Source: Marinagarivorans sp. UBA5868
GTDB taxonomy: Bacteria; Pseudomonadota; Gammaproteobacteria; Pseudomonadales; Cellvibrionaceae
DNA: 20,675 bases
Assembly: GCA_002432095.1 (NCBI GenBank)
Contig: DJFQ01000048.1
Coordinates: forward strand, 1-20,675
Reading direction: 5' to 3'
Shown: piece after piece, positions 2,775 to 18,961 of the stretch
Layout: the number at the start of each line of letters is the position of its first letter
How positions within the stretch are numbered: position 1 is the first letter of the stretch
Program-made: the position numbers and the translations under genes
Notes under the pieces: model-generated
Told to the model about the DNA's origin: nothing
The model's input: only the letters and a program-made list of their open reading frames with translations
Databases searched by the model: none

Positions 2775-3404
2775 TCAAGTCGCTTCAGAGAGGGTGTTTT
2801 TGCCGTCGAGATGTGCCTTGCAAAATGAGAGTGCCTGACGTGCCATAGGCGACAAATGTTCTTTCAGTTTGTCCAGCCGAGCCACCAGCTCGCGGGCACG
2901 GGATTCGTGTATTTCGTATAAAAAATTCCCTTGTAAATCTGCCCGGTAGTTGCCGATGGTCTCGCAGTAATTGGCAGCGACGCGCAGCAATTTTTCCAGT
3001 GACGATTTGAAATAAGCGTCAGGAACTTGGGGGAAAGGAAATGCACCTTCGATATAGTCGGAAAATTCGACTCGACGGGTTCCATCTGCGCTGCCAAACT
3101 CGCGTCGCAACAAATGCGTTAGATCGTTTTCGAACTGTTGCAAGCAGCGCAACCTGTCCTGATTTCGACTTTCTCTTACCATGTTAATCAGATCGTGCTT
3201 CTGGCGACGCAAGCTGTATAGCACGAGAAACAATATGACCCACAACACTAATGGACCGAGAATACCGCCGAAAAAGGTGGCGAAGTCCGACCAGTCCACT
3301 GGCGCTCCGAGCAGGTCGAGAGTGTTGTCCGCGTAATAAAAATAAAAAAATACCGCCAGAGCGATAAGACAAATTCCCACAACCGCTGCAATCACAAATT
3401 CCAC
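2775..3404 (-). CDS. Small membrane protein with two N-terminal helices, unknown function
   Basis: I take the GTG at 3404 as start (209 aa), because it falls directly before the first membrane helix (FVIAAVVGICLIALAVFF). The frame stays open to a TTG at 3578, but the extra 58 residues are Cys-rich, lack a ribosome site and would cover the likely promoter region. Two transmembrane helices (about 3-22 and 42-62) flank a short loop containing VDWSDFATFFGGILGP. A charged, mostly helical cytoplasmic region follows (RRQKHDL onward, about 145 residues). The helix-loop-helix with a DFxxFFGGxLxP motif before the second helix recalls the membrane part of the putative phage abortive infection family (putAbiC), but the soluble part is short and I see no decisive motif. 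That link is weak inference. The gene is divergent from yjdM and separated from the beta-glucosidase gene by 136 bases. Confidence 0.6.
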   Translation of the reverse strand: MEFVIAAVVGICLIALAVFFYFYYADNTLDLLGAPVDWSDFATFFGGILGPLVLWVILFLVLYSLRRQKHDLINMVRESRNQDRLRCLQQFENDLTHLLRREFGSADGTRRVEFSDYIEGAFPFPQVPDAYFKSSLEKLLRVAANYCETIGNYRADLQGNFLYEIHESRARELVARLDKLKEHLSPMARQALSFCKAHLDGKNTLSEAT

Positions 3405-3564
3405 GCGTAAAATCCCGCTTAAGTATGTTGCGCCGCAGCCAAGCCGGATGCAGCGTTTGACGCCAAAAGTCACGTAATATGCTGCACACATTCGCAAATA
3501 ACAAGCGCAACATTGGCCACACTGTTGAGTGCTTGGAGGGAGGTTTGTGAACTTCCGCAAAGTT

Positions 3565-3578
3565 TTGTCATAAGACAA
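3565..3578. promoter_or_regulatory. Perfect palindrome in the divergent promoter region
   Basis: TTGTC-ATAA-GACAA is a perfect inverted repeat, and extends by one more pair to TTTGTC-ATAA-GACAAA (3564-3579). It lies about 90 bases upstream of yjdM and 160 bases upstream of the GTG start of the divergent membrane protein gene. The size and symmetry suit a dimeric repressor or activator site. I cannot assign it to a known regulator. The rest of the 261-base spacer shows only weak promoter-like matches, for example TTGACG at 3457-3462 followed 15 bases later by TATGCT. Confidence 0.3.
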
Positions 3579-7000: not shown

Positions 7001-8030
7001 ACAATTGATTCGCCACCGGGTTGGGGTCGCCCCGGTGCAATTCGCGCACGACTAGGCGACTGCCGGGGTCCGCCAGATATGTCGGCAAACTTTGCCACTG
7101 GGGTGGTAACTGGGTCTGGCTCGGGTCCATTCCTGGCAGTCCGTCCAACTGCACCGTCCGCAGTTGCGGACTGGCCTGAAACACCCACACTTCCTGACTC
7201 GGCCACAGGTCATTTATGGGTTGATAAGCAAGTTCGGTAAGCGGCTGAGCGCTATGGGCACGCAGGCGGATTTCCCAGCGCCCCGGCTTCAGTTGTACAC
7301 GCAGGCTGCCGTCTTTTTCCACCCGCGCGGCGAGTTCACTGTCGAACCCGCGGGGCTGAAATCCCGGCAGCAAAATCGGGCCAGTGTGCACCTCCCGCTC
7401 CTTGCCGCTCACACTGAGTTGCACCAAGGTTTCCAAAAGTGCCGGATTGGCATCCGTAATATGGCGGAATACTTTGATATCGAGGCTGTCCCCCGCCGGG
7501 GTCGCTTGCTCTTCACGCTGGCCGCGCAACCAGAGTTCGCTCGCAGTTGCCCGCGTGGGATTGGCCACAGCAGCGCCGTTAATGGCTAAATTCAGCAGAC
7601 CGGTTTCGCTGGGAATAGGCAGTGTGCGCGGTAAATCATTCCAGGCCCATATACCGGACACACGATGTTCGCCTTCCGTTAGATACACCTGAGGTTTACC
7701 GTCGCGGCGCACCACCGGAATCGCCTCCCCGCGGTTGGTCACCTGCTGCGGCCAGAATCCGTCTGCCCCAGGCAACACCACCCAAGCAGGTGCAAAGGTT
7801 TCGACCCGTAACTCAAACTGCCCGCCGGCATCGCCCAACTGCAAATCCAGCCGACTGGGCCAATCGCAGGTTTTTTTTGACTGGTTGAGAAAATAAGGGC
7901 AGTTGATATGCGGGTAATCGTGCAACACCCATTCGCGCCAATTTTGCAGCTCCGGTGGAATGGCCACCTGTGCGGCGGCGGAAGAAACCAGGCTGAGCCA
8001 GCCAATGACAATCGCGAAATACCGTCCCAT
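4026..8030 (-). CDS. Very large multi-module inner-membrane/periplasmic protein, unknown function
   Basis: A protein of 1334 residues that I do not recognise as a named family. The start is the ATG at 8030: AGGTGA lies 5 bases upstream, better than an in-frame GTG three codons earlier. A cleavable signal peptide (about 1-20, ending SSAAAQ) leads into a beta-rich periplasmic region of about 450 residues. A cluster of roughly three membrane helices follows (about 470-555), with further hydrophobic segments near 672-690 and 705-720. A second beta-rich region spans about 730-1130, and about five helices close the protein. The second region begins after a hydrophobic stretch ending PSVEAQ that resembles a signal peptide. 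Its CLPDC and RVLVNGKEA / GRLWVRLPAGRHEL motifs repeat the pattern of the first module, so the gene probably arose by duplication and fusion. The gene stands alone, with a terminator upstream. Role unknown; envelope assembly or polysaccharide handling would be guesses. Confidence 0.85.
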   Translation of the reverse strand: MGRYFAIVIGWLSLVSSAAAQVAIPPELQNWREWVLHDYPHINCPYFLNQSKKTCDWPSRLDLQLGDAGGQFELRVETFAPAWVVLPGADGFWPQQVTNRGEAIPVVRRDGKPQVYLTEGEHRVSGIWAWNDLPRTLPIPSETGLLNLAINGAAVANPTRATASELWLRGQREEQATPAGDSLDIKVFRHITDANPALLETLVQLSVSGKEREVHTGPILLPGFQPRGFDSELAARVEKDGSLRVQLKPGRWEIRLRAHSAQPLTELAYQPINDLWPSQEVWVFQASPQLRTVQLDGLPGMDPSQTQLPPQWQSLPTYLADPGSRLVVRELHRGDPNPVANQLSLNKDLWLDFNGGYYTVKDVISGSFTDSQRLEAQPSYELGRAEQAGQPLSVTRLAEDSARGVEIRAQQLNLLAVSRLERNTSLPVSGWQASFDQVNTTLHLPPGWSLLHASGVDRVGGSWIGNWSLWEIFLVLIVAVALGRATSPLIGAVAFATVVLLFQRPGSPVVIWLNFAVVFALLPFAKGTWMTWLQRYLWLSFALLLLIALPFLVQQARQVLYPQLEKSWLVQDARFAGDAAPPELAREMMDTSAVEEVVVQGLRSSEYSPARPLVKAAPNRQKTYDPGQKIQVGPGMPDWSWNQASLTWSGPVTTADEVGLYLAPPWLNRLGAVLAIVLPVLLALLLVRYAIGRVPLPPLRMWPAQMAVLVFAVVLGGGAPSVEAQVMVDSELLKTLEKRLLEPPKCLPDCASIEAVTLADEASTLTLTMRVHTAVDMAFPLPAQVPGWYPNRVLVNGKEAAWLKSWDGRLWVRLPAGRHELILSGGTSGREQIALAFELPIHNVRQTLSNWRVSGEPNPQQTSQVLQLQREQAQAAREETQRLLPDPMPPYVSVSRRVSVGLEWTVTTVVERIAPADGVINLAVPLLPGEAPNSGQVRDGAMDVRLAAGQNEFTWESTLKPFAELTFVAPAGQLWAEVWSLDVSPSWHATVSGIPPVAGSYNLWQPWPGESITVAISRPVAVEGRQLSIDALQLQQSVGKRADTVSLQLQMRATQGEHYDLQLPEGAQLQRVIIDGRETPISQSQNRLKIPINPGSHQVQVDWQSDRASGLKSQTPALDLGMPATNLRLQMHLPADRWLLLVGGPAIGPALLFWSVLLVVLLLAVGLARSGTTPLKAYEWVLLSLGVATFNLYVLALIAIWFVALHLRGRRQAAPADHLFNLMQLGLFALSVLVLAALAGSIPASLLSRPDMLVTGNGSSATYLQWYQDHSQSVIPVGWAITLPLWIYRVAMLLWALWLAFALMRWLPWAWGNLGVQGFWFTPQKKEVAPPPAP
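4031..4058 (+). terminator. Possible intrinsic terminator after yjdM
   Basis: GCGCC (4031-4035) and GGCGC (4042-4046) form a 5-bp GC stem with a 6-base loop, and six consecutive T's follow after a short gap (4053-4058). The site is 27 bases past the yjdM stop, in the right orientation for that gene. It also lies inside the 3' end of the convergent large gene, where it encodes the Pro/Ala-rich tail. It may therefore be a by-product of coding sequence, and the gap before the T-run weakens it. Confidence 0.3.
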
Positions 8031-8106
8031 GTGATTCACCTGTTATTGTTTTTTAGTTTCCTGATGTGGCTGTAGCGTCGTGCCAGAACCTGCTTCCCCG
8101 CCTACC

Positions 8107-8139
8107 GAAAAAAGACCCCCCTGCCCACTTACCAGGGGG
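8107..8139 (-). terminator. Strong intrinsic terminator after the oxidoreductase gene
   Basis: Read on the minus strand, CCCCCTG pairs perfectly with CAGGGGG (8117-8123 and 8133-8139) around a 9-base loop. TCTTTTTTC follows almost at once. The hairpin begins 31 bases past the oxidoreductase stop and ends 77 bases before the start of the large membrane protein gene. It therefore separates two transcripts, and the large gene must have its own promoter in 8031-8106. I see no clear -35/-10 pair there. Confidence 0.85.
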
Positions 8140-8169
8140 CGCCCGGCGAGGGGGCCATCTACTTCCCAC

Positions 8170-9255
8170 CTAAATTTTCACCTGCTTACCCGTCTCCACC
8201 GATTTCAACGCAGCTTCCACCACGCGAATGTCTGCCAAGCCATCGCTGCCGGGCGCCATTACCTCGGTGTCATTCAGGATAGCCAATGCATCGTCGTCCA
8301 TTTGTTTAGCTTGTTGATGAGCGATGGTTTTATCGAGTTTTTTGCCGTCGCTGGTTTGTCCTTTGACGCCGTTGTAGGACTGCATCGGCTGCAACTCGTA
8401 CCAGCCTTTCTCACAATCTACCCGCAGATGGTTCATATTCCGGGTGACACTGGTGGCGCAATTTGCGATCACGCCGCCGGGAAATTCCAGATCAAAAATC
8501 GCCGTCGAGTCGGCTTTGGTGAAAATTTTCGGCAGGTCATTTTCGAAGCGCGCAGTGATTGCCAGTGGCTCCAGTCCCGTTGAATAACGGGTGGCATTGA
8601 TGGGATACACACCCATATCATAAAGCGCGCCGCCGCCTTTACTACGGTCCATCCGCCAATCGTCTGCTGGGCCTCCGCGACCGGCATATCCCGCCTCCGC
8701 TTTGACTTTTTTGATGGCGCCGTAGGGTTTGGTTTCGGCAAATTGAATAACAGTTTGCGTGTTGGGTTCGTGCTGAAGACGATAGCCGAGGCTCAATTTC
8801 ACTTTATTTTTATTGCAAGCGTCGATGATGGCCTGACATTCACCCACCGTCATCGCCATGGGTTTTTCGCACCACACATGTTTACCGGCTTCCGCCGCCA
8901 TCAGTGAAAATTTCTTGTGAAGAAAAGTCGGCGTCACCACGTAGACGACATCAATGTCCGGGTTATCAGCGATTTCCGGCAGGGTTTCGTAGGAGTAAAC
9001 ATTCTTGTCAGCAATGCCGTATTTTTTCTGCCACACCGGTATCTTTTCCGGGCTGCCGGTCACTATGCCGCGCAATTCGCAATATTCAGTCAGTTGCAGA
9101 CCTGGCGCCAAAAGATCGCGGCTGTAACCGCCGAGGCCCAGTAAGGCGACGCCGATTTTCTTTTTGGGTTTTGCAGCCCATGCGGGCAAGATCAAAGATG
9201 AGGCGGAGGCTCCGGCAATACCTTGAAGCAGGCGGCGGCGGGACAGATGGGTCAT
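8170..9255 (-). CDS. Tat-exported GFO/IDH/MocA family oxidoreductase
   Basis: NAD(P)-dependent dehydrogenase of the glucose-fructose oxidoreductase / inositol dehydrogenase / MocA family, 361 residues. The ATG at 9255 has AGGAG 7 bases upstream and opens a twin-arginine signal (SRRRLLQG at 5-12, hydrophobic core, cleavage near LPAWA-AK, 27), so it is preferred over the longer open frame. The Rossmann fold has a GLGGYS nucleotide loop (about 40-45), and EKP at 130-132 carries the family's substrate-site lysine. A C-terminal alpha/beta domain includes GGALYDMGVYPINATRY. Tat export means the protein folds, probably with its nicotinamide cofactor bound, before reaching the periplasm, as in Zymomonas glucose-fructose oxidoreductase. 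Sugar substrates are likely but unproven; other Tat-exported members (GH109) are glycosidases that use NAD catalytically. The gene is single, with terminators on both sides. Confidence 0.9.
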   Translation of the reverse strand: MTHLSRRRLLQGIAGASASSLILPAWAAKPKKKIGVALLGLGGYSRDLLAPGLQLTEYCELRGIVTGSPEKIPVWQKKYGIADKNVYSYETLPEIADNPDIDVVYVVTPTFLHKKFSLMAAEAGKHVWCEKPMAMTVGECQAIIDACNKNKVKLSLGYRLQHEPNTQTVIQFAETKPYGAIKKVKAEAGYAGRGGPADDWRMDRSKGGGALYDMGVYPINATRYSTGLEPLAITARFENDLPKIFTKADSTAIFDLEFPGGVIANCATSVTRNMNHLRVDCEKGWYELQPMQSYNGVKGQTSDGKKLDKTIAHQQAKQMDDDALAILNDTEVMAPGSDGLADIRVVEAALKSVETGKQVKI

Positions 9256-9403
9256 AAGATTTCTCCTGTGGCTGAAGGTAGGTGATGGCGGGACAAGCGG
9301 CAAAGCATATACCACTCCGCGAGAACCGGACCACCGGGATTTGTAAACTGGTTGAGGCGATTGTAGACCGCGGACTTTGGGGGGAATTTCTTACGGGGGA
9401 GAA

Positions 9404-9434
9404 ATGAAAAAGGCCGACGGTAAGTCAGCCTTTT
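9404..9434 (-). terminator. Strong intrinsic terminator after the poly-Ser lipoprotein gene
   Basis: On the minus strand, AAAAGGCTGAC (9434-9424) pairs with GTCGGCCTTTT (9418-9408) around the 5-base loop TTACC. That makes an 11-bp stem with a single G-T wobble, and it ends in a run of T's (TTTTTCATTT). It starts 15 bases past the stop of the lipoprotein gene. The A-rich side also gives a short T-run on the plus strand, so it could act in both directions. The remaining 148 bases to the oxidoreductase start hold the AGGAG ribosome site but no promoter I can defend. Confidence 0.9.
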
Positions 9435-9448
9435 GCGGGAGATACAAA

Positions 9449-10354
9449 TCAATTGCAGCCAATGCGGGTTTGGGAAACGGCGATGTCGTCGAAAAGAATG
9501 GTGGCATTGGCAGAACCACCCCAACCCAAACGCACTTTACGAATATCAAAATTCACGAATCCGCCATAAGCACCCAGTAGGCGCTGATCGAAGCCAGTGC
9601 CGGGATCATTGTCGATCGTCAGCCCAGGTACCTCGTTGTCATTCATCCAGAGTTGGATAACGTCGTTGGCATTGTCATAGAAAAATTCAAAACACGTTAA
9701 TTGGCCAGCCGGGAATTTAACGGTCGAGGCGGCTTGTGCACCACCGGCATAAACATCGGGAGCGGCGGTGTCACCAGGATTTTCCGGGTTCCAGAAGATC
9801 GCACCGCTATCGTGAATCCGCAGACGAATGGATTGGGAATCCAAATTAGAACTTCCGTTTTCCAGAACCATAAAGAAATTGAGACCGCTATGGGACTGGG
9901 GCGAGTGGAAATGGAACCTCACATATCCAGATTCAAGCGCGGGCGCAGCCTCCACATCAAACCATGAACCCCAGAAGGCGCTGGTTTTACGCAATTCAAG
10001 AGAAGCACTGCCTTTGAGCGCCCCACTGGCAACCACACGGAAATCCCCAGGATTCACAAAATTCGCGTCCTCCGGCAGCATGCCGGCCAACCCTTCAAAA
10101 TCCTCACAATACAAAGCCCCACCTGCACAATTCGATACCACACCCGAACTGCTGGAACTGGACGAAGACGAGCTACTGGAGCTGGAGGAAGAACTGCTGG
10201 AACTGCTTGAACTGGATGAAGACGAGGAGCTGGATGACGAACTTGAGGAACTGCTAGAAGAGGACGAGCTGGAACTGCCGGTTCCCGATGAGCCAGTGCC
10301 GCCACAGGCGGAGAGCAACAATACCAGGCTCAGCAAAATAAAAGGCTGTTTCAT
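9449..10354 (-). CDS. Secreted lipoprotein with 44-residue poly-serine linker and a beta-sandwich-like domain
   Basis: A 301-residue exported protein. The ATG at 10354 has GGTGA 5 bases upstream and begins a lipoprotein signal (LLLLSAC, Cys17). A short Gly/Thr/Ser stretch leads to 44 uninterrupted serines (27-70), and a globular domain of about 225 residues follows. That domain starts with NCAGGALYCEDFEG and has regularly spaced aromatic strands. Its Cys residues (NCAGG, YCEDF, TCFEF, terminal GCN) suggest disulphides. The pattern recalls concanavalin-like jelly rolls that bind or cleave polysaccharides (polysaccharide lyase or Cip1-like proteins), but I see no catalytic motif that settles it. 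Poly-Ser linkers join modules in Cellvibrio and Saccharophagus carbohydrate-active proteins; here one tethers the domain to a membrane lipid anchor. The gene is single and ends at a strong terminator. Confidence 0.85.
   Translation of the reverse strand: MKQPFILLSLVLLLSACGGTGSSGTGSSSSSSSSSSSSSSSSSSSSSSSSSSSSSSSSSSSSSSSSSSSSGVVSNCAGGALYCEDFEGLAGMLPEDANFVNPGDFRVVASGALKGSASLELRKTSAFWGSWFDVEAAPALESGYVRFHFHSPQSHSGLNFFMVLENGSSNLDSQSIRLRIHDSGAIFWNPENPGDTAAPDVYAGGAQAASTVKFPAGQLTCFEFFYDNANDVIQLWMNDNEVPGLTIDNDPGTGFDQRLLGAYGGFVNFDIRKVRLGWGGSANATILFDDIAVSQTRIGCN
10145..10276 (-). repeat. Low-complexity serine-codon tract (44 consecutive Ser codons)
   Basis: Every codon from 10276 down to 10145 encodes serine. 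All six synonymous codons are mixed (AGT, AGC, TCC, TCG, TCT, TCA), so this is not a simple repeat made by recent slippage but one kept at the protein level. Read on the opposite strand it becomes an acidic Leu/Glu/Asp frame, which is an artefact. Confidence 0.95.
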
Positions 10355-10387
10355 AATGATCACCAAATTATTGGAGTTTATCGGTGC

Positions 10388-10421
10388 CTATAAGCGGGCA
10401 CAGAGGCCCGCAATCTTATAG
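10388..10421 (-). promoter_or_regulatory. Long hairpin overlapping a possible -10 element upstream of the lipoprotein gene
   Basis: On the minus strand GCGGGC-CTCTGT-GCCCGC forms a perfect 6-bp stem. After a 4-base bulge (GATT) on one side, CTATAA pairs with TTATAG to extend it by 6 bp. The left arm contains TATAAG (10415-10420), a reasonable -10 match 61 bases before the lipoprotein ATG, but I find no matching -35. A second perfect hairpin, GATCCG-CCGCT-CGGATC, lies at 10436-10452. The 129-base gap therefore holds two stems between the ThDP enzyme stop and the lipoprotein start. They could end the upstream operon (no T-run follows) or regulate the lipoprotein gene. Confidence 0.35.
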
Positions 10422-10483
10422 TAGTTTTGACTGCCGATCCGAGCGGCGGATCAAAAAGCTGCTCAGTCACATCTGGCCTTGCG

Positions 10484-12253
10484 CTACTTGCGCCTACTCG
10501 CAGAGTTACCCAAATCCTTAACGCGCTGGGCGATCGGCGGGACTTCTTCGCGATCGATGCGCACATCAAGGAGCACCGGGCCGCGCAAATTGGCGAAGGT
10601 GTTGAAGTCGATATCCTCCAGTTGCGCCGCCGAGTGCACCACTATGCCTGGCACCCCCATAGATTGCGCTTGCATGGCGTAGTTGACCCTGTTCAGCTCC
10701 CAGCCGATGGATTCCGCGCCGGCGATGCGCTGGCCGTGCATTACCATGCCCAATGCCGCGTCATTGAGAACGATAAACACCACCGGCAGGCGATGTTGTG
10801 CAGCGACGCTGATTTCCTGTGCACTCATCAAGTAGGCGCCATCGCCTACCATACAGACCGTTAACACATTCGGATTAGCCTTCGCAGATCCCACCGCAGC
10901 CGCCAACCCCCAACCCATAGCGCCAAAACCATCGCCAATGCGCACCAAGCCGGAATAATTGGTATTCACAAAATAATGGGCGGCCCAGGCCCAGGCGTTG
11001 CCAGCGTCGAGATAAATGCGGGTATCAGTGGGCAACACCCGGTTGAGCACTGCCATCAGGCGCTGTGGTTTGACGGGTGCAGAAGGGTCGCGGCAGCGCT
11101 CGCCGGCATCCAGCGTGGCGCGGGTGCCGAGGCAATTCAGCGGCACATCCTGCTCTACGCAGCAGCGCCAGCGCTTGCCACTCGCCCGCGCAGCATTGAC
11201 CAGCGCATTAAGCTTGCCGAAAACCAGGCCGGGATCGCTACACACATGGTGGTTGGCCATGGGGGAGCGCGTGAAGTGCTCGGCGTTTTGATCGATATGC
11301 ACCAGACGGGTATTCAACAAATGGGCATCCCAACCTCCGGTCGCCAACTCGGTGAGCGCACTGCCCACGGCAAGAATAAGGTCTGGCCGGCCTTCACTGA
11401 GAACGGCGCGCGCGGAGCTGTGACCCGCAAAACCATACACTCCCCGGTAGAGCGGATGGCGCTCATCCACCCAATATTTGCCCGTCGGTCCCACCACGAA
11501 CGGCGCATTCACCTGCTCACAAAAGGCCACCACCTGCTCGGCAGCAGGGCCGATTTCGCCGTCGATAAACACCGCTACTGTGTCCACCTTGAGAATCTTG
11601 CGCCAGAGAATCTCGATAGCGCGCTCATCTGCGATTTTGAAATCGTGGGCGAATAGGTCGGCGTGAATCCTCCGCGGCGGCGCGCTGGCGGAGCTCAACA
11701 CGTCGGAGGGAATGCTCAGGTGGGCAGGCGCTCGGGGGCTGCGGTGGGCCGCCATGATGGCGGAAATCAGCTTGCTCTCCAGTTGTTCGGCATGGGATAC
11801 CAATGATGAGAACGCCGTGCAGTGACGCATCATGCCCACTGTGTCTATGGCAGTGCAGCTGCTCTCCTGCAATGCGCGGCGACCGAACTTCGGCAGCGCC
11901 GTCTGCGCGGTAATCACCAGCATGGGGACGTGATCCGCCATGGCAGAACTGACGCCGGTTAACAAATTGGTTGCACCCGGCCCGGTGGTGGAGCACACCA
12001 CTCCCATTTTCCCCGTTTCGCGGTAGTAGCCATCGGCCATATAAGCCGCTCCACATTCATGTCGGGCCACCACCAGTTGCGGACCACCCGTGCGGCTGCT
12101 TCGGGCGAGAGCATCAAAAAGAGGTTCTATCGCTCCGCCGGGCACTCCGAATACCCACTCAATACCCAGTTGAGCGAGGTAATCGACGATAAGATCCGCG
12201 AAGGTCACTTTTTGCGCGGCGCGCAAGACAGGGGCGAGGCTGCTATCCAACAT
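10484..12253 (-). CDS. ThDP-dependent enzyme, acetolactate synthase-like
   Basis: A 589-residue thiamine-diphosphate enzyme with the three-domain plan of acetohydroxyacid synthases, 2-hydroxyacyl-CoA lyases and related decarboxylases. The N-terminal pyrimidine-binding domain has FGVPGG (35-40) and the catalytic Glu66 in RHECGAAYMADGY, where true acetolactate synthases usually have HEQ. The C-terminal pyrophosphate-binding domain has GDG at 470-472 and Asn497 in LNDAALGM, the normal GDG-x(~25)-N metal motif. It should be active. Such enzymes make or break a bond next to a 2-oxo acid carbon, but neither donor nor acceptor can be read here. The ATG at 12253 has GGTGA upstream. It is the last gene of the receptor / citrate-synthase-like unit, 83 bases after the previous stop, and no small regulatory subunit accompanies it. 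That argues against a role in branched-chain amino acid synthesis. Confidence 0.88.
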   Translation of the reverse strand: MLDSSLAPVLRAAQKVTFADLIVDYLAQLGIEWVFGVPGGAIEPLFDALARSSRTGGPQLVVARHECGAAYMADGYYRETGKMGVVCSTTGPGATNLLTGVSSAMADHVPMLVITAQTALPKFGRRALQESSCTAIDTVGMMRHCTAFSSLVSHAEQLESKLISAIMAAHRSPRAPAHLSIPSDVLSSASAPPRRIHADLFAHDFKIADERAIEILWRKILKVDTVAVFIDGEIGPAAEQVVAFCEQVNAPFVVGPTGKYWVDERHPLYRGVYGFAGHSSARAVLSEGRPDLILAVGSALTELATGGWDAHLLNTRLVHIDQNAEHFTRSPMANHHVCSDPGLVFGKLNALVNAARASGKRWRCCVEQDVPLNCLGTRATLDAGERCRDPSAPVKPQRLMAVLNRVLPTDTRIYLDAGNAWAWAAHYFVNTNYSGLVRIGDGFGAMGWGLAAAVGSAKANPNVLTVCMVGDGAYLMSAQEISVAAQHRLPVVFIVLNDAALGMVMHGQRIAGAESIGWELNRVNYAMQAQSMGVPGIVVHSAAQLEDIDFNTFANLRGPVLLDVRIDREEVPPIAQRVKDLGNSASRRK

Positions 12254-12336
12254 AGGGTCACCAATAAAGTTGCGGGCGCCGCCACAACCGCCAAAGCGAC
12301 CGGAGGCGCGTGTCGTTAAACGGCTTGTAGAAAGGA

Positions 12337-13164
12337 TTACAGCGGCCTGGGTACTGCGCGGCGCGCTACACCCTCGTATTGAACATCCGTGCAGGTTTGC
12401 GGCAGAAAGGCGTCGGCGGGGCAGTCGTACAAATCCCCGTAACAGGCCAATACACCACTCAGCACATCGGCAGTGCGGATTCGGTAGACCTCCATGGCAG
12501 AAAATCCCTGATCCATAAGGAATGCGCAGGCATAAGCCGCCGCATTCATATCAGCCTGGTGATGCACCCGCAGGTGTTCCGCCAGGGCCTCGACAAATTC
12601 AACATAATGACCGGGAGTAAAGCCCAGGTCGGCGCTGAAACGCCGCATCGGCTCCAGCCGCTCATCGGCCACTTTCACCGGTCGGGCGAAGCCGCTGATG
12701 CTGGGTACTCCATTGCGCACAGGAAAGCGCGCCACCAACTCCGCCAGACTTGTGCCCGCTGCGTAGTCGGCGTGCATTTCCGCCAGACTCAGCACCGTGA
12801 GGTACTGAACTTTGCTGCCGTAGGCTTTAGAGTCGGCGGCGAGAATTCCGGCGGCCGTCGCCGCGACGGGCGAGGTTTTGCCGTTGCCGGCCAGCGCTCC
12901 GAGCTGATTGCACCAAATGCGATGGTCCGGATAGCTGGTGAAGAAAACGGTTTTCTCCAGCCAAGTAGCCAAACGCCGGTCGATGACACGACCGGTAATG
13001 TTCAACACAGCAAGTTGGGTCACATTTAGCTGTTGCAGCAAGTCCCGCAGCATCCACTGACCGCGAACCAACACATCGCGCCCGCCCAACCATTTGCCTA
13101 TACCTGTGCGGATATGCCGTCGGCGCTCATTCCAAAAAGCGGTGTCAGTCGCTGGCGCAGTCAT
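12337..13164 (-). CDS. Short citrate synthase / citryl-CoA lyase-fold protein, second of a pair
   Basis: A 275-residue protein with a citrate-synthase-like layout. It begins with a small strand region (GKWLGGRDVLVRG, 24-35) and the segment DLLQQLNVTQLAVLNITGRV, which corresponds to the LLLTGELP region of the family. FTSYPDHRIWCNQ keeps an Asp-His pair (80-81) where active members have a DH. AYGSKV (114-119) stands where HGGA is expected, and SISGFARPVKVADERLEP (155-172) stands for the PGFGHP..DPR segment. The length matches the short citryl-CoA lyase-type form rather than the roughly 430-residue synthases. The histidine of HGGA and that of the GFGH loop are therefore missing. It overlaps the preceding paralogue by 20 bases, and the ATG at 13164 has a weak GGGA ribosome site, consistent with translational coupling. 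It probably works as a complex with its neighbour. Family placement is my reading of motif order, not of a search. Confidence 0.75.
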   Translation of the reverse strand: MTAPATDTAFWNERRRHIRTGIGKWLGGRDVLVRGQWMLRDLLQQLNVTQLAVLNITGRVIDRRLATWLEKTVFFTSYPDHRIWCNQLGALAGNGKTSPVAATAAGILAADSKAYGSKVQYLTVLSLAEMHADYAAGTSLAELVARFPVRNGVPSISGFARPVKVADERLEPMRRFSADLGFTPGHYVEFVEALAEHLRVHHQADMNAAAYACAFLMDQGFSAMEVYRIRTADVLSGVLACYGDLYDCPADAFLPQTCTDVQYEGVARRAVPRPL

Positions 13165-13921
13165 ATTGATCGTCCCGCAGCAAAGGGTTGCTGCTGATGG
13201 GTTGGTGAGTTTGCTCCATGCCCTGCGCCATCACGCCGGGAGCAATGGCGAGTTGAAAAAGGCCCAGAGTTTCCCGTGTTCCTAATCCCAAAGTCATGCC
13301 CACTGCAGCGGCTAAGCCGGGGAGCAACCACCCTTGCTGGTGCTGCTGCAAGACGCGGCTGAACGCCCGGCACCAACGAAGTACCGGATGATCCGGCATA
13401 ACGTCCAACAAATCGGTTGCCAGTTGCTGCCAGATAGGTTCTGGTTCGCCATAGCTGGTACCGAAACCGGGGATTGGTCGCTGCTGACCGAGATATTGAT
13501 CGGCGAGTTCCAGCGGATCGCGGTCGAGGTTCTTACTGAAAAATGCGTGTGCTGCTTCAACTTCGAGCGCTCCGCCCTGGCTACCAGATCCCGTCAGCAA
13601 GCCGATGGGCAACAGGTGCTCCGGCGCGGTTTTACTCACACCGGCCAGCATAGCCGCGCGTACGGCGGGATGACGGGGGCCGGGGTTTAGCAAGCCGATC
13701 AGGAAAACTTCCACTAAGCGGCGCTGCGCCGGGCTGGGCAATTCGCCCGTCAGCAGCACCAGGAGCGCGTCGACATAACTGCAGTTGCGCCACAGCTCCG
13801 CCACATCGTATCCCGCGATATAGCGCCGTTCGGCAATATAAGGGTTGCTCTCCGAGGGAGATTCCAAACAGATTCGAGTGGTAAAGTCCGCGCGGGATTG
13901 CGGTTCAGTCGCCAAAGGCAT
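13145..13921 (-). CDS. Short citrate synthase / citryl-CoA lyase-fold protein, first of a pair
   Basis: A 258-residue protein that follows the citrate synthase family pattern: IAERRYIAGYDVAELW (29-44), SYVDALLVLLTGELPS (48-63), then GSQGGALE (113-120) where catalytic members have HGGA. PGFGTSYG (151-158) follows where they have PGFGHR or PGFGHP, and a helical C-terminus contains LAAAVGMTLGLG. The DH motif after the LLLTGELPS helix is replaced by LLNPGPRHP. So the catalytic histidines are changed while the scaffold is preserved, and the pattern of loss differs from the second member, which retains an Asp-His. The start at 13921 lies inside the receptor gene, overlapping it by 17 bases, and the 3' end overlaps the next gene by 20 bases. 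Coupled expression is therefore expected. Possible roles are a structural or acyl-CoA-binding partner, or half of a composite active site. The substrate is unknown. Confidence 0.78.
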   Translation of the reverse strand: MPLATEPQSRADFTTRICLESPSESNPYIAERRYIAGYDVAELWRNCSYVDALLVLLTGELPSPAQRRLVEVFLIGLLNPGPRHPAVRAAMLAGVSKTAPEHLLPIGLLTGSGSQGGALEVEAAHAFFSKNLDRDPLELADQYLGQQRPIPGFGTSYGEPEPIWQQLATDLLDVMPDHPVLRWCRAFSRVLQQHQQGWLLPGLAAAVGMTLGLGTRETLGLFQLAIAPGVMAQGMEQTHQPISSNPLLRDDQYDCASD

Positions 13922-16046
13922 AAGTCACATCCACCAACCAGTGGCGTCCCGCCAGCGGATAATCATCTGGAATAAAACCGTTACTTGGCTCGCGAGCATC
14001 GGCGTCGGTGAGATTCTTCAAGGCAACGCCCACTTCAAGCGCTTGCCAGCGGGTTTGCAGGCGCGTATCCAGCCACACGTAGTCATCAATCGCCGGTCGC
14101 AGATCCCCCGGTGCACGGGCGCGCTCGCCCACCCACTTTGCCCCGATATACCAATGCCAATTACTTAATCGCCAATGAGCCGCAACATTTGCCATGCGTT
14201 TAGGCACCGCGGAGAAATCCACATCTTTCTGCGTCGAGTCATCCAGCAAGGAATAATTAACATCGACACTAAGGAACTGCCCAGGGCGCCAGCTCACCTG
14301 ATACTCCAAACCGCGGACTTCCAATTCACCGGAGTTTTGGGCCACTTGTACCCCTCCAACCGGCGCAAACGCGATGATGTTGTCGGCCTCATAGCGGAAC
14401 AAGTTCATTTCCATATGCAGTGATTCGGTGAACACATAATTCAAAGACAGGCCGCCGTCCAGCGTATGGATGGACTCCGATTCCAGATTGGGGTTGCCCA
14501 TTCCCGCCGGATTGTTTTGCGCGTAAAGATCGACAAATGAGGGGGCGCGAAAGGCAGTGCCTAAAAACAATTTGCTGGTGAGGTGGGGTGTTGTCTGCCA
14601 AGTCACGCCTAGGCGCGGATTGAAGGTGGAACCAAAATCACTGTAGTGGTCGTAGCGCACACCCAACGTGCTCTGCACTGAGTCGCTGATTTGCCACTGA
14701 TCCTGCAAGGCGACGAAATAACTCTCTCGGGTTTTATTGGGCAGGTAGACATAGGGTGTATCGGTCACATCCGTCAGGGTGCCATCCACCACTGTCACTT
14801 CGGGGGCTAAAACCCCAGGGCCAAAATTTTTCTGCTCAAAAACATCCGTTTTTACGTGTTCGTAACCCACCGCCCAGCGCACTCGGTGATCATCGCCCAC
14901 CTGAAAAATATGATCGAGCTGCAGCGATGTGGCCTGATCGTCATTGCCGGGCACCCCAATGAGTCCCTCAGAAAAAGTGACCTCGCGGGTATTAGGGCCA
15001 AAACCTACGTTGCCGTCCTCCCCTATAGGGACTCGGGCGCCGGCAGGAAACACCTTCGACCAGAGGCGCGAATTCACCCTATGCCAGGCTGCTGTGAGAT
15101 TCATGTCGCCGCTCACAAGTGCGGAGAGATCATAGGTGGCCGCAAAGGTTTGCGCTTGCTGGCGGAAACTGCCCTCGGGATCCAATGCCTGCGCAACACC
15201 TGCTCCATTGCCGGATTCGCGGTTGTTCCAGTTCATGTAGCGCAGGTCGAGATTGCGAAATTCCCATTGCACCCGTGCGCTATAAATTTCGTGGTCGTTT
15301 TCCATAGGTCCCGGAGCGCGGGAGACCGAGGTGTTATACATCTGATCAAACGTGGTTTGAAAATCCGCTGCCACGATGCGATCGCGATCACCGTCTCCCG
15401 TCTGCGCGCCGAGCGCCATCTGCAAAATACTGTCACCCAGTTGTGCTTTGTGGCTCCACTCCAAATGGTGTGTATCAAAGTCGCCGACTCTGGCGGTCAG
15501 TCTCGATGGCATTTCGCCGGGCTGGTAGCTGACCAGATTAATAATGCCGCCCACAGCATCCGCACCATAAATAGCAGACCCTGGACTGCGGATGACTTCG
15601 ATTCTTTTGAACGCGTTAAGAGGAATGCGTTGACCCCAAAGGGTGCCGCCATCGCGAATATGCCGAAATGGCAATCCGTCGATGAGGATGAGAATTTGCT
15701 GCCCAAATGCACCGGATAGTCCGCGTACTACCGGGCGGTTATTGCTGAATGCAGTTTGCGCTTTTGTGATGTGCACGCCCGGCACATGCTGCAAAGCTTC
15801 GAATAGCCGCGTTGCGCCCATCGCCTGCCACTCTTCCGCATTGATTACCGTTACCGATGCGGGCGCCTCTTCCACGTTCTGCTCAAATCCGGCTGCCGCA
15901 GTGACCACACGAACGTTTAACAGGTCATTCAAACCCAATTCAAATAAAGATTCCGTCTTGTTATCAGGTTCGGCGCTAAAAACATTTTGACCGACAGTGA
16001 GACTGGGAATGAACAACAGGCTACGAACCAACCTTCTTACGTTCAT
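13905..16046 (-). CDS. TonB-dependent outer-membrane receptor
   Basis: A 713-residue outer-membrane transporter that takes up a scarce ligand using energy passed on by TonB. A signal peptide (1-25, cut near VFSA-EP) is followed by LNDLLNVRVVTAA, whose VRVVTA (45-50) is a plausible TonB box. The plug domain spans about 58-173 (APASVTVINAEE, RPVVRGLSG, ILILIDGLP, IEVIRSPGSAIYGADAVGGIINL), and a 22-strand-type barrel ends LVDVTYAFGD. The layout is that of BtuB/FepA-like receptors, often for siderophores, haem, cobalamin or oligosaccharides; the ligand is not evident. AAGG lies 7 bases before the ATG at 16046. It is the first gene of a unit with two citrate-synthase-like proteins and a ThDP enzyme. 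I looked for a Fur-type box upstream and saw none. The upstream 16047-16180 is AT-rich with a lone TATACT (16142-16147) as a candidate -10. Confidence 0.93.
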   Translation of the reverse strand: MNVRRLVRSLLFIPSLTVGQNVFSAEPDNKTESLFELGLNDLLNVRVVTAAAGFEQNVEEAPASVTVINAEEWQAMGATRLFEALQHVPGVHITKAQTAFSNNRPVVRGLSGAFGQQILILIDGLPFRHIRDGGTLWGQRIPLNAFKRIEVIRSPGSAIYGADAVGGIINLVSYQPGEMPSRLTARVGDFDTHHLEWSHKAQLGDSILQMALGAQTGDGDRDRIVAADFQTTFDQMYNTSVSRAPGPMENDHEIYSARVQWEFRNLDLRYMNWNNRESGNGAGVAQALDPEGSFRQQAQTFAATYDLSALVSGDMNLTAAWHRVNSRLWSKVFPAGARVPIGEDGNVGFGPNTREVTFSEGLIGVPGNDDQATSLQLDHIFQVGDDHRVRWAVGYEHVKTDVFEQKNFGPGVLAPEVTVVDGTLTDVTDTPYVYLPNKTRESYFVALQDQWQISDSVQSTLGVRYDHYSDFGSTFNPRLGVTWQTTPHLTSKLFLGTAFRAPSFVDLYAQNNPAGMGNPNLESESIHTLDGGLSLNYVFTESLHMEMNLFRYEADNIIAFAPVGGVQVAQNSGELEVRGLEYQVSWRPGQFLSVDVNYSLLDDSTQKDVDFSAVPKRMANVAAHWRLSNWHWYIGAKWVGERARAPGDLRPAIDDYVWLDTRLQTRWQALEVGVALKNLTDADAREPSNGFIPDDYPLAGRHWLVDVTYAFGD

Positions 16047-16180
16047 TACTTTGCCTTATTGTGAATTTTGACGAGCCGATCACCGCCCGTTTAACAGGAA
16101 AACTATCTAAGCGCCAAAATCAGCAGTGATGATGTTTTTTGAGTATAGACAAGAATAAGAAAGCAAGTGACGGAAGTGAA

Positions 16181-16211
16181 AATAATTGCGCCGTCCAGGG
16201 CGGAGCGGCGC
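16181..16211 (-). terminator. Probable intrinsic terminator between the energy-transduction operon and the receptor gene
   Basis: On the minus strand GCGCCG (16211-16206) pairs perfectly with CGGCGC (16193-16188) around a GC-rich 12-base loop, followed by AATTATTTTC. It begins 9 bases past the stop of the TonB-like gene. The T-run is interrupted, so termination may be partial and some read-through into the receptor gene is possible. Confidence 0.55.
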
Positions 16212-16219
16212 GAAGGGTT

Positions 16220-17185
16220 TTAATAGGGCAAAAAGTCGAAGGAATAATTTAACGTGGTCTGCAATACATCAGAGCCACCGAAGTTAATACCGCGGACAGC
16301 GGCGAGAAGTTTGCGCTCCAGATCCGCATCATTCAATTCGCTGGAAACAATTTGTGCGCTGGAAACAGCGCCGCTGGGTTCAATCACTAACTTGAATACG
16401 ACCTTACCCTGCAGCGTCGGGTTTTCCCGCAATGCACGGTTGTAAATACCAAAGATTCGGCCCTTGGCTTCTTCCATTTTTTGACGAATAGATTGATCAC
16501 CGCGAAACGCTTTTTCCCGCGTTTGCTGCTGGCGATTATCCGCAGCGGCAGCGGATACTTCTTCCAACTTGCTCTCCACCACGGTGGTCTCGCGTCCAGA
16601 AAGTGCAACGCCTCCGGTGTCGCGGCTCAACGCTGCGGTATTCACACCGCCGCTTTTTGCCTGGGCACCACTGCTGATGAAGTTGCGCTCCACTTGGGCG
16701 GCGTCGGCGGTGGCGCGGGTAATGTTGGCGCTGGGCGTTTTCACATCGGATACGTCCAACGCATCGCGCATATCGGCGAGATCATCGGCGAACTGCAGAA
16801 CGCCGCTCTGCTTCGCCTGCTCAATCGCCTTCTGCAATTTAACCGGTTCTGGCTCTGACTTTTTCGGCTCCGGCGGTTTGGGCTCGGGTTTTTTCTCTTC
16901 CGGTTTCGGCTCGGGCTTTTTTTCCTCCGGCTTTTTTTCTTCCGGCGGCGGTGGAGGCGGTGGCTTCGGCAGTTCTTTTTTCTCCAAAACCACTCGCGCC
17001 AGTTGCGGCGGTAATTGCTCTAATTCTTCACGTTTGGGTTCTGGCAGTGGGATAAAAGGAATGGCGATGCTCAAAATAAGCAAAGGTACGCAGAGCGCAC
17101 CGAGCACCCGCCAAAAACGTTTGTCCTCGTCCTGCGAGCTGCTCCAGGGGAGTTCCAGATTGGGCGTTACAACCACAGCCACCAT
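16220..17185 (-). CDS. TonB-like energy transducer with AgmX/PglI-type C-terminal domain
   Basis: A 321-residue inner-membrane-anchored periplasmic protein. The start is the ATG at 17185, one base past the stop of the preceding ExbD gene, with AGGGGG 5 bases upstream; the longer frame to 17230 would overlap that gene. A short cytoplasmic N-terminus precedes one membrane helix (about 27-46). A rigid Pro/Lys/Glu spacer (about 70-115, EEKKPEPKP repeats) follows, as in TonB. A helical, Ala/Gln/Glu-rich middle leads to a C-terminal domain (about 235-320) with GRIFGIYNRALRENP, GKVVFKLVIEPSGAV and a final beta strand YSFDFLPY. The last resembles TonB C-domains and the AgmX/PglI tail. It should pass energy from the neighbouring ExbB/ExbD complex to an outer-membrane or cell-surface partner. 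Whether that partner is the adjacent receptor is an inference. Confidence 0.85.
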   Translation of the reverse strand: MVAVVVTPNLELPWSSSQDEDKRFWRVLGALCVPLLILSIAIPFIPLPEPKREELEQLPPQLARVVLEKKELPKPPPPPPPEEKKPEEKKPEPKPEEKKPEPKPPEPKKSEPEPVKLQKAIEQAKQSGVLQFADDLADMRDALDVSDVKTPSANITRATADAAQVERNFISSGAQAKSGGVNTAALSRDTGGVALSGRETTVVESKLEEVSAAAADNRQQQTREKAFRGDQSIRQKMEEAKGRIFGIYNRALRENPTLQGKVVFKLVIEPSGAVSSAQIVSSELNDADLERKLLAAVRGINFGGSDVLQTTLNYSFDFLPY

Positions 17186-17186
17186 C

Positions 17187-17723
17187 TCAACCCCCTTGCG
17201 CCGAAACGGCGGGTGTCGCACTGCCGTCATCGGGAATCTGACTGACGGCCAAAGAAATATTGCGATACTCGGACTGGGCGCAGGTAGTCATGATTTTTTT
17301 CAGTAGCGTATACGGCAGAGCGGCGTCGCCCATGATGGTCACATCGCGGCCTTTCTGTTGTTCTTCATCGGATGCATAAGGTTTGCGCGAAGCGAGATAT
17401 TCCAGCTCTTTTTTCAGCGGTGCGATTTCTTCGCCTTCAACCGCCATTGCGGTTTTGATATCGGTAATCAAACGACCATTGATGATGATCTCGTCGTTGC
17501 TCACCATCACGATCAAATTGTCTTGCGGGCGTTTGTCGGCGACAGATTCCGGCAGCTTGATACTTTTGTTATTTTGCAACACTTCCACGTCGGAGGAATT
17601 TACCAACAGGAAAAACACCAGGATGGTAAAAATATCCATCAGCGAAACCAGATTCAGTTTCGGCTGCGATTTAGTGCGTTTGTGATGCCTCGCCATGCGG
17701 CGTGCATGCATGGACTGCTTCAT
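17187..17723 (-). CDS. ExbD/TolR family protein (keeps the membrane aspartate)
   Basis: A 178-residue proton-channel subunit. A basic N-terminus (ARRMARHHKRTKSQPKLN) precedes one membrane helix with the essential Asp30 in SLMDIFTILVFFLL, and a periplasmic domain (IKLPES, IIINGRLI) follows. The tail is longer than in typical ExbD (about 140 residues), with an insert around EEIAPLKKELEYLASRKP and a Ser/Ala/Gly-rich end. Its ATG overlaps the stop of the first exbD-like gene in an ATGA arrangement, and its stop lies one base before the TonB-like start, so all three are probably translated in sequence. It is expected to couple proton flow through the ExbB pentamer to the TonB-like protein. Confidence 0.9.
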   Translation of the reverse strand: MKQSMHARRMARHHKRTKSQPKLNLVSLMDIFTILVFFLLVNSSDVEVLQNNKSIKLPESVADKRPQDNLIVMVSNDEIIINGRLITDIKTAMAVEGEEIAPLKKELEYLASRKPYASDEEQQKGRDVTIMGDAALPYTLLKKIMTTCAQSEYRNISLAVSQIPDDGSATPAVSAQGG

Positions 17724-18244
17724 GGCGCACCTCCGGCGGACGTATTTACCGGCGCGTCACCTAAGGAAATTTCTGGAAATAATTCCGCATTAACAACTGA
17801 TGCAGCGAGAACCGCTTTAAACGAACGCACAGTGTCCATGGCGGAGACGATGGTCTGATAATCGGTGTTGGGCTGGGAGAGAATAAAAATATCGCGCTTT
17901 TCGATGCCTCTGTCTTTCAGCAGACGTTTAACTTCCTGGAGAACATCGGAAAGCAATTTGTAATCGTACTCACCGTCTTTTTGCGGCACGGTTTTTAGCG
18001 GGGCACCGGCGGGATAATTCACGACAAAACGATCCGGCAAAATCACCAACTCCAGCATTTGATTCTCCGGCTGGTCATTGGGCTCGGAGGAGTCCGCTGC
18101 GAGATCCGGTAATTTCAGATCCAACACGGTGATATGGGAGAACACCATGCTCATTAGCAGCACAGGAACCAGAATGATCATCAAATTCATGAACGAAGTG
18201 ATCTCTAGATCCGCTTCTTCACGATTTCGTTTTCGAATTCGCAT
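17720..18244 (-). CDS. ExbD/TolR family protein with Asn in place of the membrane Asp
   Basis: A 174-residue ExbD/TolR-type protein, first of two. The N-terminus is basic and acidic (MRIRKRNREEADLEIT). The membrane helix reads SFMNLMIILVPVLLMSMVF, so the position of the conserved proton-carrying Asp is Asn20. The periplasmic domain has LDLKLPD, PDRFVVNY and a long C-terminal half with KRDIFILSQPNTDYQTIVSAMDTVR. Losing the acidic residue suggests a structural or regulatory subunit paired with the second ExbD, whose Asp is present. 21 bases separate it from the ExbB stop. The ribosome site is weak (GGTCGG), perhaps relying on coupling. Confidence 0.88.
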   Translation of the reverse strand: MRIRKRNREEADLEITSFMNLMIILVPVLLMSMVFSHITVLDLKLPDLAADSSEPNDQPENQMLELVILPDRFVVNYPAGAPLKTVPQKDGEYDYKLLSDVLQEVKRLLKDRGIEKRDIFILSQPNTDYQTIVSAMDTVRSFKAVLAASVVNAELFPEISLGDAPVNTSAGGAP

Positions 18245-18265
18245 GTAAAACCGACCAGCGGGAAA

Positions 18266-18961
18266 TTAGAGAGTTTTCGGCTTGGCAGCAGCTGCAGCGG
18301 TCGCAGGGTCTGTCGCGCGGGTTTTCGCGCTGAACGCGTCGCTGTTGGACATGATATTCAGCGTTTTCACGCCGGCCATTTCCAAACTGTCGACGATTTC
18401 TGCCGTTTTGTTTTGAATCGCTGTGTGCAGAAGCAACAAAGGGATCGCCGCCATCAACCCAAAGGCCGTGGTATTCATGGCCACAGAAATACTTTGCGAA
18501 AGCAGCGCGGCTTTTTCCGACGGGTCCGCATTGGCAACGGCGGTAAATGCGGCAATCAAACCCATGATAGTGCCCAAAAGCCCAAGGAGCGTGGCGATGT
18601 TCGCAAGGGTGGCAATATAAGCGGTGCGTTTTTCCAGGCGCGGCACTGCTTCCATCACGCCCTCTTCCATCGCGTATTCAATCTCATCGCGGCGCGGCGT
18701 GTGCTGCATGCGCGCGATACCGGCGGCGATGATGCGGCTGATCGGCGCATTGGATGAACGGCCCAAATCAGCGATGGCGGCGTAATCGCGTTTTTTTAGC
18801 AGCGGCAAAATTCGGTCAAATGCCCGCCGGTTTGCCACCTTCGCAGTGGTCAGAAACACCCAGCGTTCGATCGCGACCGCCAGCCCCACCACCAATACCA
18901 GGGCGATGGGGTACATAAATGAACCACCGTCCTGAAAAAACCGCACAGCTGCATCGAACAT
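18266..18961 (-). CDS. MotA/TolQ/ExbB family proton channel protein
   Basis: A 231-residue inner-membrane protein that forms the channel core with ExbD subunits. Three membrane helices are visible: about 16-33 (MYPIALVLVVGLAVAIERW), 115-137 (IATLLGLLGTIMGLIAAF) and 160-182 (MNTTAFGLMAAIPLLLLHT). A large cytoplasmic loop lies between the first two (KKRDYAAIADLGRSSNAPISRIIAAGI). The GLLGTIMGLIAAF and NTTAFGL motifs are those of the TolQ/ExbB family. GGAGGT lies 9 bases before the ATG at 18961. It is upstream of, and close to, the two exbD-like genes. The 86-base gap before it (18962-19047) is AT-rich but shows no promoter I would defend. Confidence 0.92.
   Translation of the reverse strand: MFDAAVRFFQDGGSFMYPIALVLVVGLAVAIERWVFLTTAKVANRRAFDRILPLLKKRDYAAIADLGRSSNAPISRIIAAGIARMQHTPRRDEIEYAMEEGVMEAVPRLEKRTAYIATLANIATLLGLLGTIMGLIAAFTAVANADPSEKAALLSQSISVAMNTTAFGLMAAIPLLLLHTAIQNKTAEIVDSLEMAGVKTLNIMSNSDAFSAKTRATDPATAAAAAKPKTL

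Follow-up and report, generated by a model that had tools for sequence, protein, structure and literature searches.

The window analysed here comprises all 20,675 nucleotides of contig DJFQ01000048.1 from Marinagarivorans sp. UBA5868 (Cellvibrionaceae). It contains a unit of four open reading frames (ORFs) that encode a TonB-dependent receptor, two proteins with the citrate-synthase fold (CS1 and CS2) and an enzyme dependent on thiamine diphosphate (ThDP):

13905–16046, reverse strand: TonB-dependent receptor of a cassette-dedicated family (PF00593/PF07715 and a receptor profile from 10 other cassettes)
13145–13921, reverse strand: CS1, citrate-synthase/citryl-CoA-lyase fold without the citrate-synthase catalytic set (profiles, AlphaFold2, Foldseek, alignment)
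12337–13164, reverse strand: CS2, a second, deeply diverged citrate-synthase-fold protein (profiles, AlphaFold2, Foldseek, alignment)
10484–12253, reverse strand: ThDP-dependent carboligase-like enzyme (NCBIfam, closest solved relatives BbmA/CsmA, cassette profile)
13905–13921, reverse strand: receptor/CS1 overlap of 17 bases (ORF coordinates)
13145–13164, reverse strand: CS1/CS2 overlap of 20 bases (ORF coordinates)
12268–12289, reverse strand: terminator-like site inside the gap between CS2 and the ThDP gene, not above chance (terminator scan)

The coordinates agree with a first-pass annotation of the window, which had described four ORFs on one strand with overlaps of 17 and 20 bases and a gap of 83 bases. 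Together the four ORFs form the core of a dedicated, conserved cassette.

Conservation of the four-gene cassette

A scan of species genomes was keyed on CS1 alone, with the lone match L018 (L numbers denote loci) excluded from the search profile, and the best 80 of 105 loci, chosen by one motif, were analysed. CS2 was present in 75 of these loci, the receptor in 71, the ThDP gene in 54, and all four families in 50. The remainder consisted of 21 loci without a ThDP gene in the fetched stretch, four without the receptor, and five with CS1 only; many fetched stretches stop at contig ends. All counts reported here come from related genomes and are therefore not independent. Among 58 genomes searched, those of the window and its relatives, 18 contained a CS1 match (the window's own counted), and of the 19 short loci from this search, 18 have CS2 adjoining CS1. 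Sampling by CS2 identified a strong match (E < 1e-50) in 41 of 369 genomes of the class besides the window's own, and a match passing 1e-15 in 11 of 398 genomes of the phylum, the window's own counted. Forty of the 41 class-sample loci were fetched, and G091, in which the frame is in pieces, was left out; CS1 was found in 37 of the 40, the ThDP gene in 31, and the receptor in 33. Another 26 genomes of the class with weaker CS2 matches were not counted as carriers, and the four viewed (L213–L216) hold lone, weakly matching genes without other cassette families.

Both CS genes are present in 112 of the 120 loci examined, invariably on one strand with CS1 first. The midpoints of the two genes are at most 1.2 kb apart in 109 of the 112, and the maximum is 1.72 kb. 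Two loci contain single-ORF fusions: L164 joins the ThDP enzyme (residues 16–593) to CS1 (611–861), and L068 joins CS2 (13–280) to a short-chain dehydrogenase/reductase (SDR; 293–528). Pfam confirms the ThDP part of the former and the SDR part of the latter. The linkage contradicts a scatter of homologues among relatives and bears out the first-pass proposal that the four genes belong together. The pair, the ThDP enzyme, the receptor, a binding protein and a kinase are also present in L204 and L206, which belong to a deeply diverged branch with CS1 only 24–31% identical to that of the window. Carriers include Gammaproteobacteria, Gallionellaceae, Desulfobulbaceae (among them a cable bacterium), Desulfuromonadales, Magnetococcales, and one metagenome-assembled genome of Nitrospirota. 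Cellvibrio sp. OA-2007, Teredinibacter waterburyi and Saccharophagus sp. K07 are carriers available in culture. No description of the cassette was found in the open-access literature, a coverage outside which most subscription journals fall.

Proteins encoded by the cassette

The citrate-synthase fold proposed for CS1 and CS2 in the first-pass annotation is upheld by AlphaFold2 models (mean predicted local distance difference test scores of 94.7 and 94.1) and by Foldseek, in which the best match of both is citryl-CoA lyase 6hxp, with template modelling scores of 0.76 and 0.75. Profile searches against 6hxp gave E values of 4.7e-29 for CS1 and 4.1e-17 for CS2. The two proteins are mutually related (hhalign probability 99.1) yet form separate families. 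PF00285 scores CS1 at 25.6 bits, just under the cut-off of 27, and CS2 has no Pfam match, with NCBIfam giving weak citryl-CoA-lyase matches alone. The best NCBIfam citryl-CoA lyase scores are 60.3 against a cut-off of 212 for CS1 and 45.7 against 193 for CS2.

We take H274, H320 and D375 (pig numbering) to be the catalytic residues of citrate synthase, and R329 and R401 to be its oxaloacetate/citrate-binding arginines. These positions were carried by hand onto alignments of 93 CS1 and 95 CS2 sequences. In CS1, the H274 position is occupied by His in 47 sequences, Tyr in 10 and Gln in 9, with Gln in the window; the H320 position by Ser in 47 and Thr in 16; and the D375 position by Thr in 45, Pro in 27 and Ser in 11. 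In CS2, the H274 position contains Ala in 37 sequences, Met in 18, Leu in 10 and Ser in 10; H320 has no counterpart, since the residue falls within an insertion of 6hxp; and the D375 position contains Asn in 38, Ala in 31 and Gly in 13. Arg occupies the R401 position in 8 of 93 CS1 and in none of 95 CS2 sequences. The R329 position is Arg in 95 of 95 CS2 sequences and mostly Met, Leu, Ile, Val or Phe in CS1, so that CS2 retains one residue of the arginine pair and CS1 usually none. Because the catalytic positions have changed in both proteins, citrate chemistry by CS1 and CS2 appears unlikely. The missed cut-offs and lost catalytic residues ruled out a genuine citrate synthase or citryl-CoA lyase.

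CS1 and CS2 resemble citryl-CoA lyase (Hydrogenobacter thermophilus CCL, 6hxp) and the corresponding module of ATP-citrate lyase in having a short citrate-synthase fold of about 260 residues. However, citryl-CoA lyase is one gene, whereas the cassette has two different partner genes. Relative to the lyase, the H320-, D375- and R401-type residues are lost in both proteins, and the H274-type residue is lost in CS2 and variable in CS1, but CS2 has its own R82, R161, D167 and R169, which are invariant in 95 of 95 aligned sequences. Judged from the alignments, CS1 and CS2 are constrained as in enzymes or binding proteins, unlike decaying copies. Since the two genes pair, we infer that the proteins form a CS1–CS2 heterodimer. 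CS1 occurs without CS2 in L042, L049, L053, L061 and L066, where the clusters also encode members of the thiolase, enoyl-CoA hydratase/3-hydroxyacyl-CoA dehydrogenase, AMP-ligase and thioesterase families, of each of which one member was scanned. The position of lone CS1 genes beside these fatty-acid-degradation families hints that CS1 handles acyl-CoA.

All three domains of the ThDP enzyme (N, M and C) exceed the Pfam cut-offs and are the same as in the acetolactate synthase large subunit, BbmA and CsmA. In contrast to acetolactate synthase, the cassette enzyme falls below the listed cut-offs and is linked to CS1 and CS2. Its best solved match is BbmA (E 4.6e-80), and CsmA is also near (PDB 8x3x, 8x3z); nothing relevant on the role of BbmA or CsmA was found in the open-access literature. 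Glu66, GDG(470–472) and N497 are invariant among 15 aligned cassette enzymes; Glu66 is the catalytic glutamate and GDG...N the ThDP motif. The enzyme scores 288.9 bits against the cut-off of 538.35 of the NCBIfam acetolactate synthase equivalog, and 824.5 bits against a profile built from ten other cassettes with the window excluded, for which C257, the next-best ThDP gene in the genome, reaches 274. An ordinary acetolactate synthase was ruled out by this missed cut-off and the gap between the profile scores, and the place of the ThDP enzyme in the four-gene unit, as the first-pass annotation had it, is strengthened. A Pfam scan of 18 window ORFs detected no gene for the regulatory small subunit of acetolactate synthase.

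The plug and barrel of the receptor (PF07715, PF00593) are above the Pfam cut-offs. A profile from 10 other cassettes gives the receptor 600 bits and the next receptor of the genome 84. Because their profile scores far exceed those of the next genes in the genome, the ThDP enzyme and the receptor are dedicated members of cassette families. The receptor shares its fold with siderophore, heme and B12 receptors but misses the substrate-specific cut-offs; among NCBIfam models it comes closest, though weakly, to heme, B12 and siderophore receptors, with at best 163.6 bits against a cut-off of 316.85.

Signalling genes near the cassette and its proposed function

Domain profiles seeded from cassette neighbours were applied equally to target loci and to 20 hand-picked control regions, 16 in target genomes and four in relatives; neighbour proteins were scanned in samples only. 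A kinase, receiver, GGDEF or EAL domain was found in 35 of the 40 CS2-drawn loci and in 6 of the 20 controls (Fisher p 1e-5). For the individual domains, the numbers were 31 and 3 for histidine kinase (p 5e-6), 23 and 3 for GGDEF (p 2e-3), 24 and 1 for EAL (p 2e-5), and 26 and 0 for a PF04392-like periplasmic binding protein (p 3e-7). Among the 80 CS1 loci, 60 contained any signalling gene, 47 a histidine kinase, 34 GGDEF, 31 EAL, 36 the PF04392-like protein, and 17 YfiR. A signalling gene lies within the same stretch in 68 of 76 four-family loci. The order ThDP enzyme–CS1–CS2–receptor–PF04392-like protein–histidine kinase/response regulator/GGDEF/EAL recurs in L159–L161, L163, L165 and L169, and L160 encodes a hybrid protein of 1494 residues with HisKA, HATPase, Hpt, receiver, GGDEF and EAL domains. 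Among relatives from the family of the window, L055 encodes a YfiR-kinase-receiver protein; a protein of this type also precedes the receptor in L212, where CS2 is followed by a receiver-GGDEF-EAL protein. The receptor is absent from 16 of the 120 loci, 10 of which hold both CS genes; five of these 10 (L096, L100, L144, L166 and L168) carry a signalling gene by these profiles, and in L166 and L168 the CS pair lies beside kinases. In L100 (Magnetaquicoccus), CS2 is followed at 6057–12013 by a Ser/Thr kinase-AAA-GAF-histidine kinase of 1771 residues and a LuxR-type response regulator. A chemotaxis receptor (L150, 4522–6657), a receiver-SpoIIE phosphatase (L149, 14492–16228) and an asparagine-synthase-like protein (L139, 10298–12211) were also observed as neighbours. 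The kinases, cyclic dimeric GMP (c-di-GMP) enzymes and periplasmic binding protein that cluster with the cassette in relatives point to signalling; they lie outside the window and were missed earlier.

An SDR, a possible tailoring enzyme, is encoded near the core in 21 of the 80 CS1 loci and four of the 40 CS2 loci. Further possible tailoring enzymes near the core are a sulfotransferase, adenosine 5'-phosphosulfate (APS) kinase, an O-methyltransferase and an Asn-synthase-like protein. APS kinase and sulfotransferase genes were observed beside the cassette at L028 11584–12204 and L045 12199–13320, and L045 has a different ThDP branch.

Because most relatives carry the genes near sensor-kinase or c-di-GMP genes, we give an even chance to the cassette making a small diffusible molecule and perceiving it through its own outer-membrane receptor. 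The enzymes and possible tailoring genes suggest synthesis, and the receptor, binding protein and kinases suggest perception. Making and sensing a signal is the simplest joint reading of these components, and we hold it with middling confidence. The ThDP enzyme would link an acyl unit derived from a 2-oxoacid to a second substrate, and the CS1–CS2 heterodimer would act on the resulting compound or on an acyl-CoA partner. In some lineages the molecule may be completed by an SDR, methyltransferase or sulfotransferase. An acyl-CoA-handling CS1, the ThDP enzyme and the SDR would together yield products resembling alpha-hydroxyketones. The molecule would exit the cell, return via the receptor, become bound in the periplasm, and alter the output of kinases or c-di-GMP enzymes. 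In the genus of the window, the receptor lies behind an ExbB-ExbD-TonB set with no adjacent kinase. More tentatively, and with doubt prevailing, we speculate that the cassette represents a new class of bacterial chemical communication across Pseudomonadota and sulfate- and iron-cycling bacteria. The ThDP enzyme would act as a carboligase and, with a heterodimer of repurposed citrate-synthase-fold proteins, would build an acyloin- or alpha-hydroxyketone-like signal that some lineages would reduce, methylate or sulfate. After re-entry through its own TonB receptor, the signal would be recognised by a periplasmic binding protein and by hybrid kinases controlling c-di-GMP, chemotaxis or transcription.

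Several observations weigh against a signal that is made and sensed. The results would fit synthesis or breakdown alike, and product, activity and export are predictions. The four genes of the window and of L021 and L022 from its own genus have no kinase or GGDEF gene within about 20 kb. A search of the window genome for a partner kinase or GGDEF-EAL protein of the Cellvibrio type yielded no orthologue; the best candidates, about 33–36% identical over kinase or GGDEF-EAL parts, were rejected. The same genome has TonB receptors beside a YfiR-like protein and a kinase, without the enzymes, at L218 7687–14030 and L219 411–4887, and L218 adds a GGDEF-EAL protein. These loci represent a separate arrangement leading from receptor to c-di-GMP. 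Because receptors adjoin YfiR proteins and kinases without enzymes there, the combination of receptor and sensor may be older than the cassette. Signalling genes are missing from 8 of the 76 four-family loci and 5 of the 40 drawn loci, and are present in 6 of the 20 controls. The core itself varies: CS2 occurs without CS1 in three of 40 loci (L140, L141 and L170, rechecked at a loose threshold), CS1 without CS2 in five of 80, beside the fatty-acid-degradation families, and the ThDP gene is absent from the fetched stretch in 26 of 80 CS1 and 9 of 40 CS2 loci, some of which reach contig ends. L205 of the diverged branch has the order CS1–CS2–receptor–binding protein, with no ThDP gene or kinase within 20 kb. 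Some deltaproteobacterial loci carry another ThDP branch of 31–33% identity, and ThDP distances correlate weakly with those of CS1 and CS2 (0.39 and 0.47, 52 loci). The terminator-like site between CS2 and the ThDP gene may separate expression of the latter, which may or may not share the transcript of the other genes. In many relatives the ThDP gene is on the opposite strand or elsewhere within the cluster; since it stands apart from the CS pair there, neither this site nor the CS2 loci lacking CS1 shift our assessment.

The main rival explanation, which we regard as rather unlikely, is sensed uptake and breakdown: the receptor would import an environmental compound detected by the periplasmic protein and kinase, and a CS1–CS2 lyase and the ThDP enzyme would cut it for use. 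This would account for the frequent receptor, the citryl-CoA lyase as nearest fold, the lone CS1 genes beside acyl-CoA degradation families, and the position of the window unit among carbohydrate genes. However, the lyase catalytic residues are lost, and no permease was identified among the scanned recurring neighbour families, a few small ones being unnamed in Pfam or outside the scan. Of 40 loci, 5 encode an ATPase of the ATP-binding cassette (ABC) type that includes an ABC_tran_CTD domain; we take it to be of the ABC-F type and likely non-transport. Partners such as c-di-GMP enzymes, chemotaxis receptors, SpoIIE and LuxR-type proteins are unusual for a catabolic operon, and sulfotransferase and APS kinase better match synthesis.

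A metallophore-like ligand, made by the enzymes and retrieved by the receptor for metal supply, is improbable. Biosynthetic-type enzymes do stand alongside their own receptor, the heme, B12 and siderophore families are its weak best matches, and a methyltransferase and an ArsR-family regulator, observed at L038 4480–5714 on the reverse strand, are found some kilobases from the cassette in 5 of 72 loci. However, those receptor models score far under cut-off, the ArsR and methyltransferase genes may be arsenic genes with no relation to the cassette, and sensor kinases and c-di-GMP genes do not serve metal supply. The absence of a non-ribosomal peptide synthetase (NRPS)-independent siderophore (NIS) synthetase, noted in the first-pass annotation, agrees with the lack of an IucA/IucC-type match among the 18 scanned window ORFs; no NRPS gene was found among them, and neither type among the scanned recurring neighbours. 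The annotation's suggestion of a metallophore or carboxylate ligand is not supported: the R401-type carboxylate-binding arginine and the catalytic residues are lost, and no specific metal link was found. Very improbable, finally, is that ordinary acetolactate synthase and citrate lyase or synthase genes are neighbours by accident. Where databases name such proteins, they use citrate synthase, citryl-CoA lyase or hypothetical protein, but the curated cut-offs are widely missed for the ThDP enzyme and both CS proteins, the catalytic residues are lost, fusions exist, and the linkage contradicts chance.

The proposed signal system can be compared with known ones. In alpha-hydroxyketone quorum sensing (CqsA/CqsS of Vibrio, Lqs of Legionella), a synthase forming a carbon–carbon bond is encoded next to a sensor kinase, and the cassette would work alike. 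However, CqsA is a pyridoxal phosphate (PLP) enzyme unrelated to the cassette enzymes, and the CqsA and Lqs systems are not known to have an outer-membrane receptor. The cassette enzymes belong to none of the known quorum-sensing synthases (LuxI, CqsA-type PLP enzymes, LuxS), having ThDP and the citrate-synthase fold instead. Known quorum-sensing pairs have a sensor kinase or regulator next to the synthase; such genes accompany the cassette in 35 of the 40 drawn loci against 6 of the 20 controls, but not in the window's genus. FecA/FecR/FecI also ties a receptor to a regulatory output, as proposed here, whereas the cassette has kinases and c-di-GMP enzymes in place of sigma and anti-sigma factors, and includes enzymes. 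YfiR/HmsC proteins (PF13689) control diguanylate cyclases, and the YfiR-like domain of L055 is fused to a kinase; the YfiBNR system is not known to include enzymes or a TonB receptor. Proteins that databases label citrate synthase or hypothetical protein prove to be without citrate-synthase active sites and to be members of a receptor-linked and often kinase-linked cassette. If a signal is made, an unfamiliar chemical language would connect many uncultured bacteria of sediments and biofilms. Otherwise, the cassette would still contain a new type of enzyme, and the route to its substrate is clear, since receptor, binding protein and enzymes have each been identified.

Surroundings of the unit in the window

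The receptor gene is preceded by a TonB energiser:

16220–18961, reverse strand: ExbB-ExbD-ExbD-TonB energiser with a TonB C-terminus of the AgmX/PglI type, just upstream of the receptor (Pfam, NCBIfam)

ExbB is 70–81% identical in ten relatives without a CS1 match, and the set was therefore rejected as part of the cassette. It likely powers the receptor as a general module of the family.

Two boundaries given in the first-pass annotation are not supported. The gap 16047–16219, where an upstream terminator had been placed, has no terminator-like site on the reverse strand and folds like shuffled sequences (z 0.53), and this terminator was rejected as a unit boundary. Downstream, where hairpins had been described, the stretch 10367–10486 folds with z −1.01, and 30 of 200 shuffles were equally good. 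The gap between CS2 and the ThDP gene folds like shuffles (z −0.13) despite its terminator-like site at 12289–12268. Across the whole region, 12 such sites were found against 8.5 ± 2.9 expected, about chance.

The carbohydrate-type genes of the window encode a GH3 protein, a Gfo/Idh/MocA oxidoreductase and a Cip1-like protein (77–2740, 8170–9315 and 9449–10366, reverse strand). Two further reverse-strand ORFs, 2775–3578 (267 residues) and 4026–8039 (1337 residues), have no Pfam or NCBIfam match; the longer one has a relative of 72% identity in L022.

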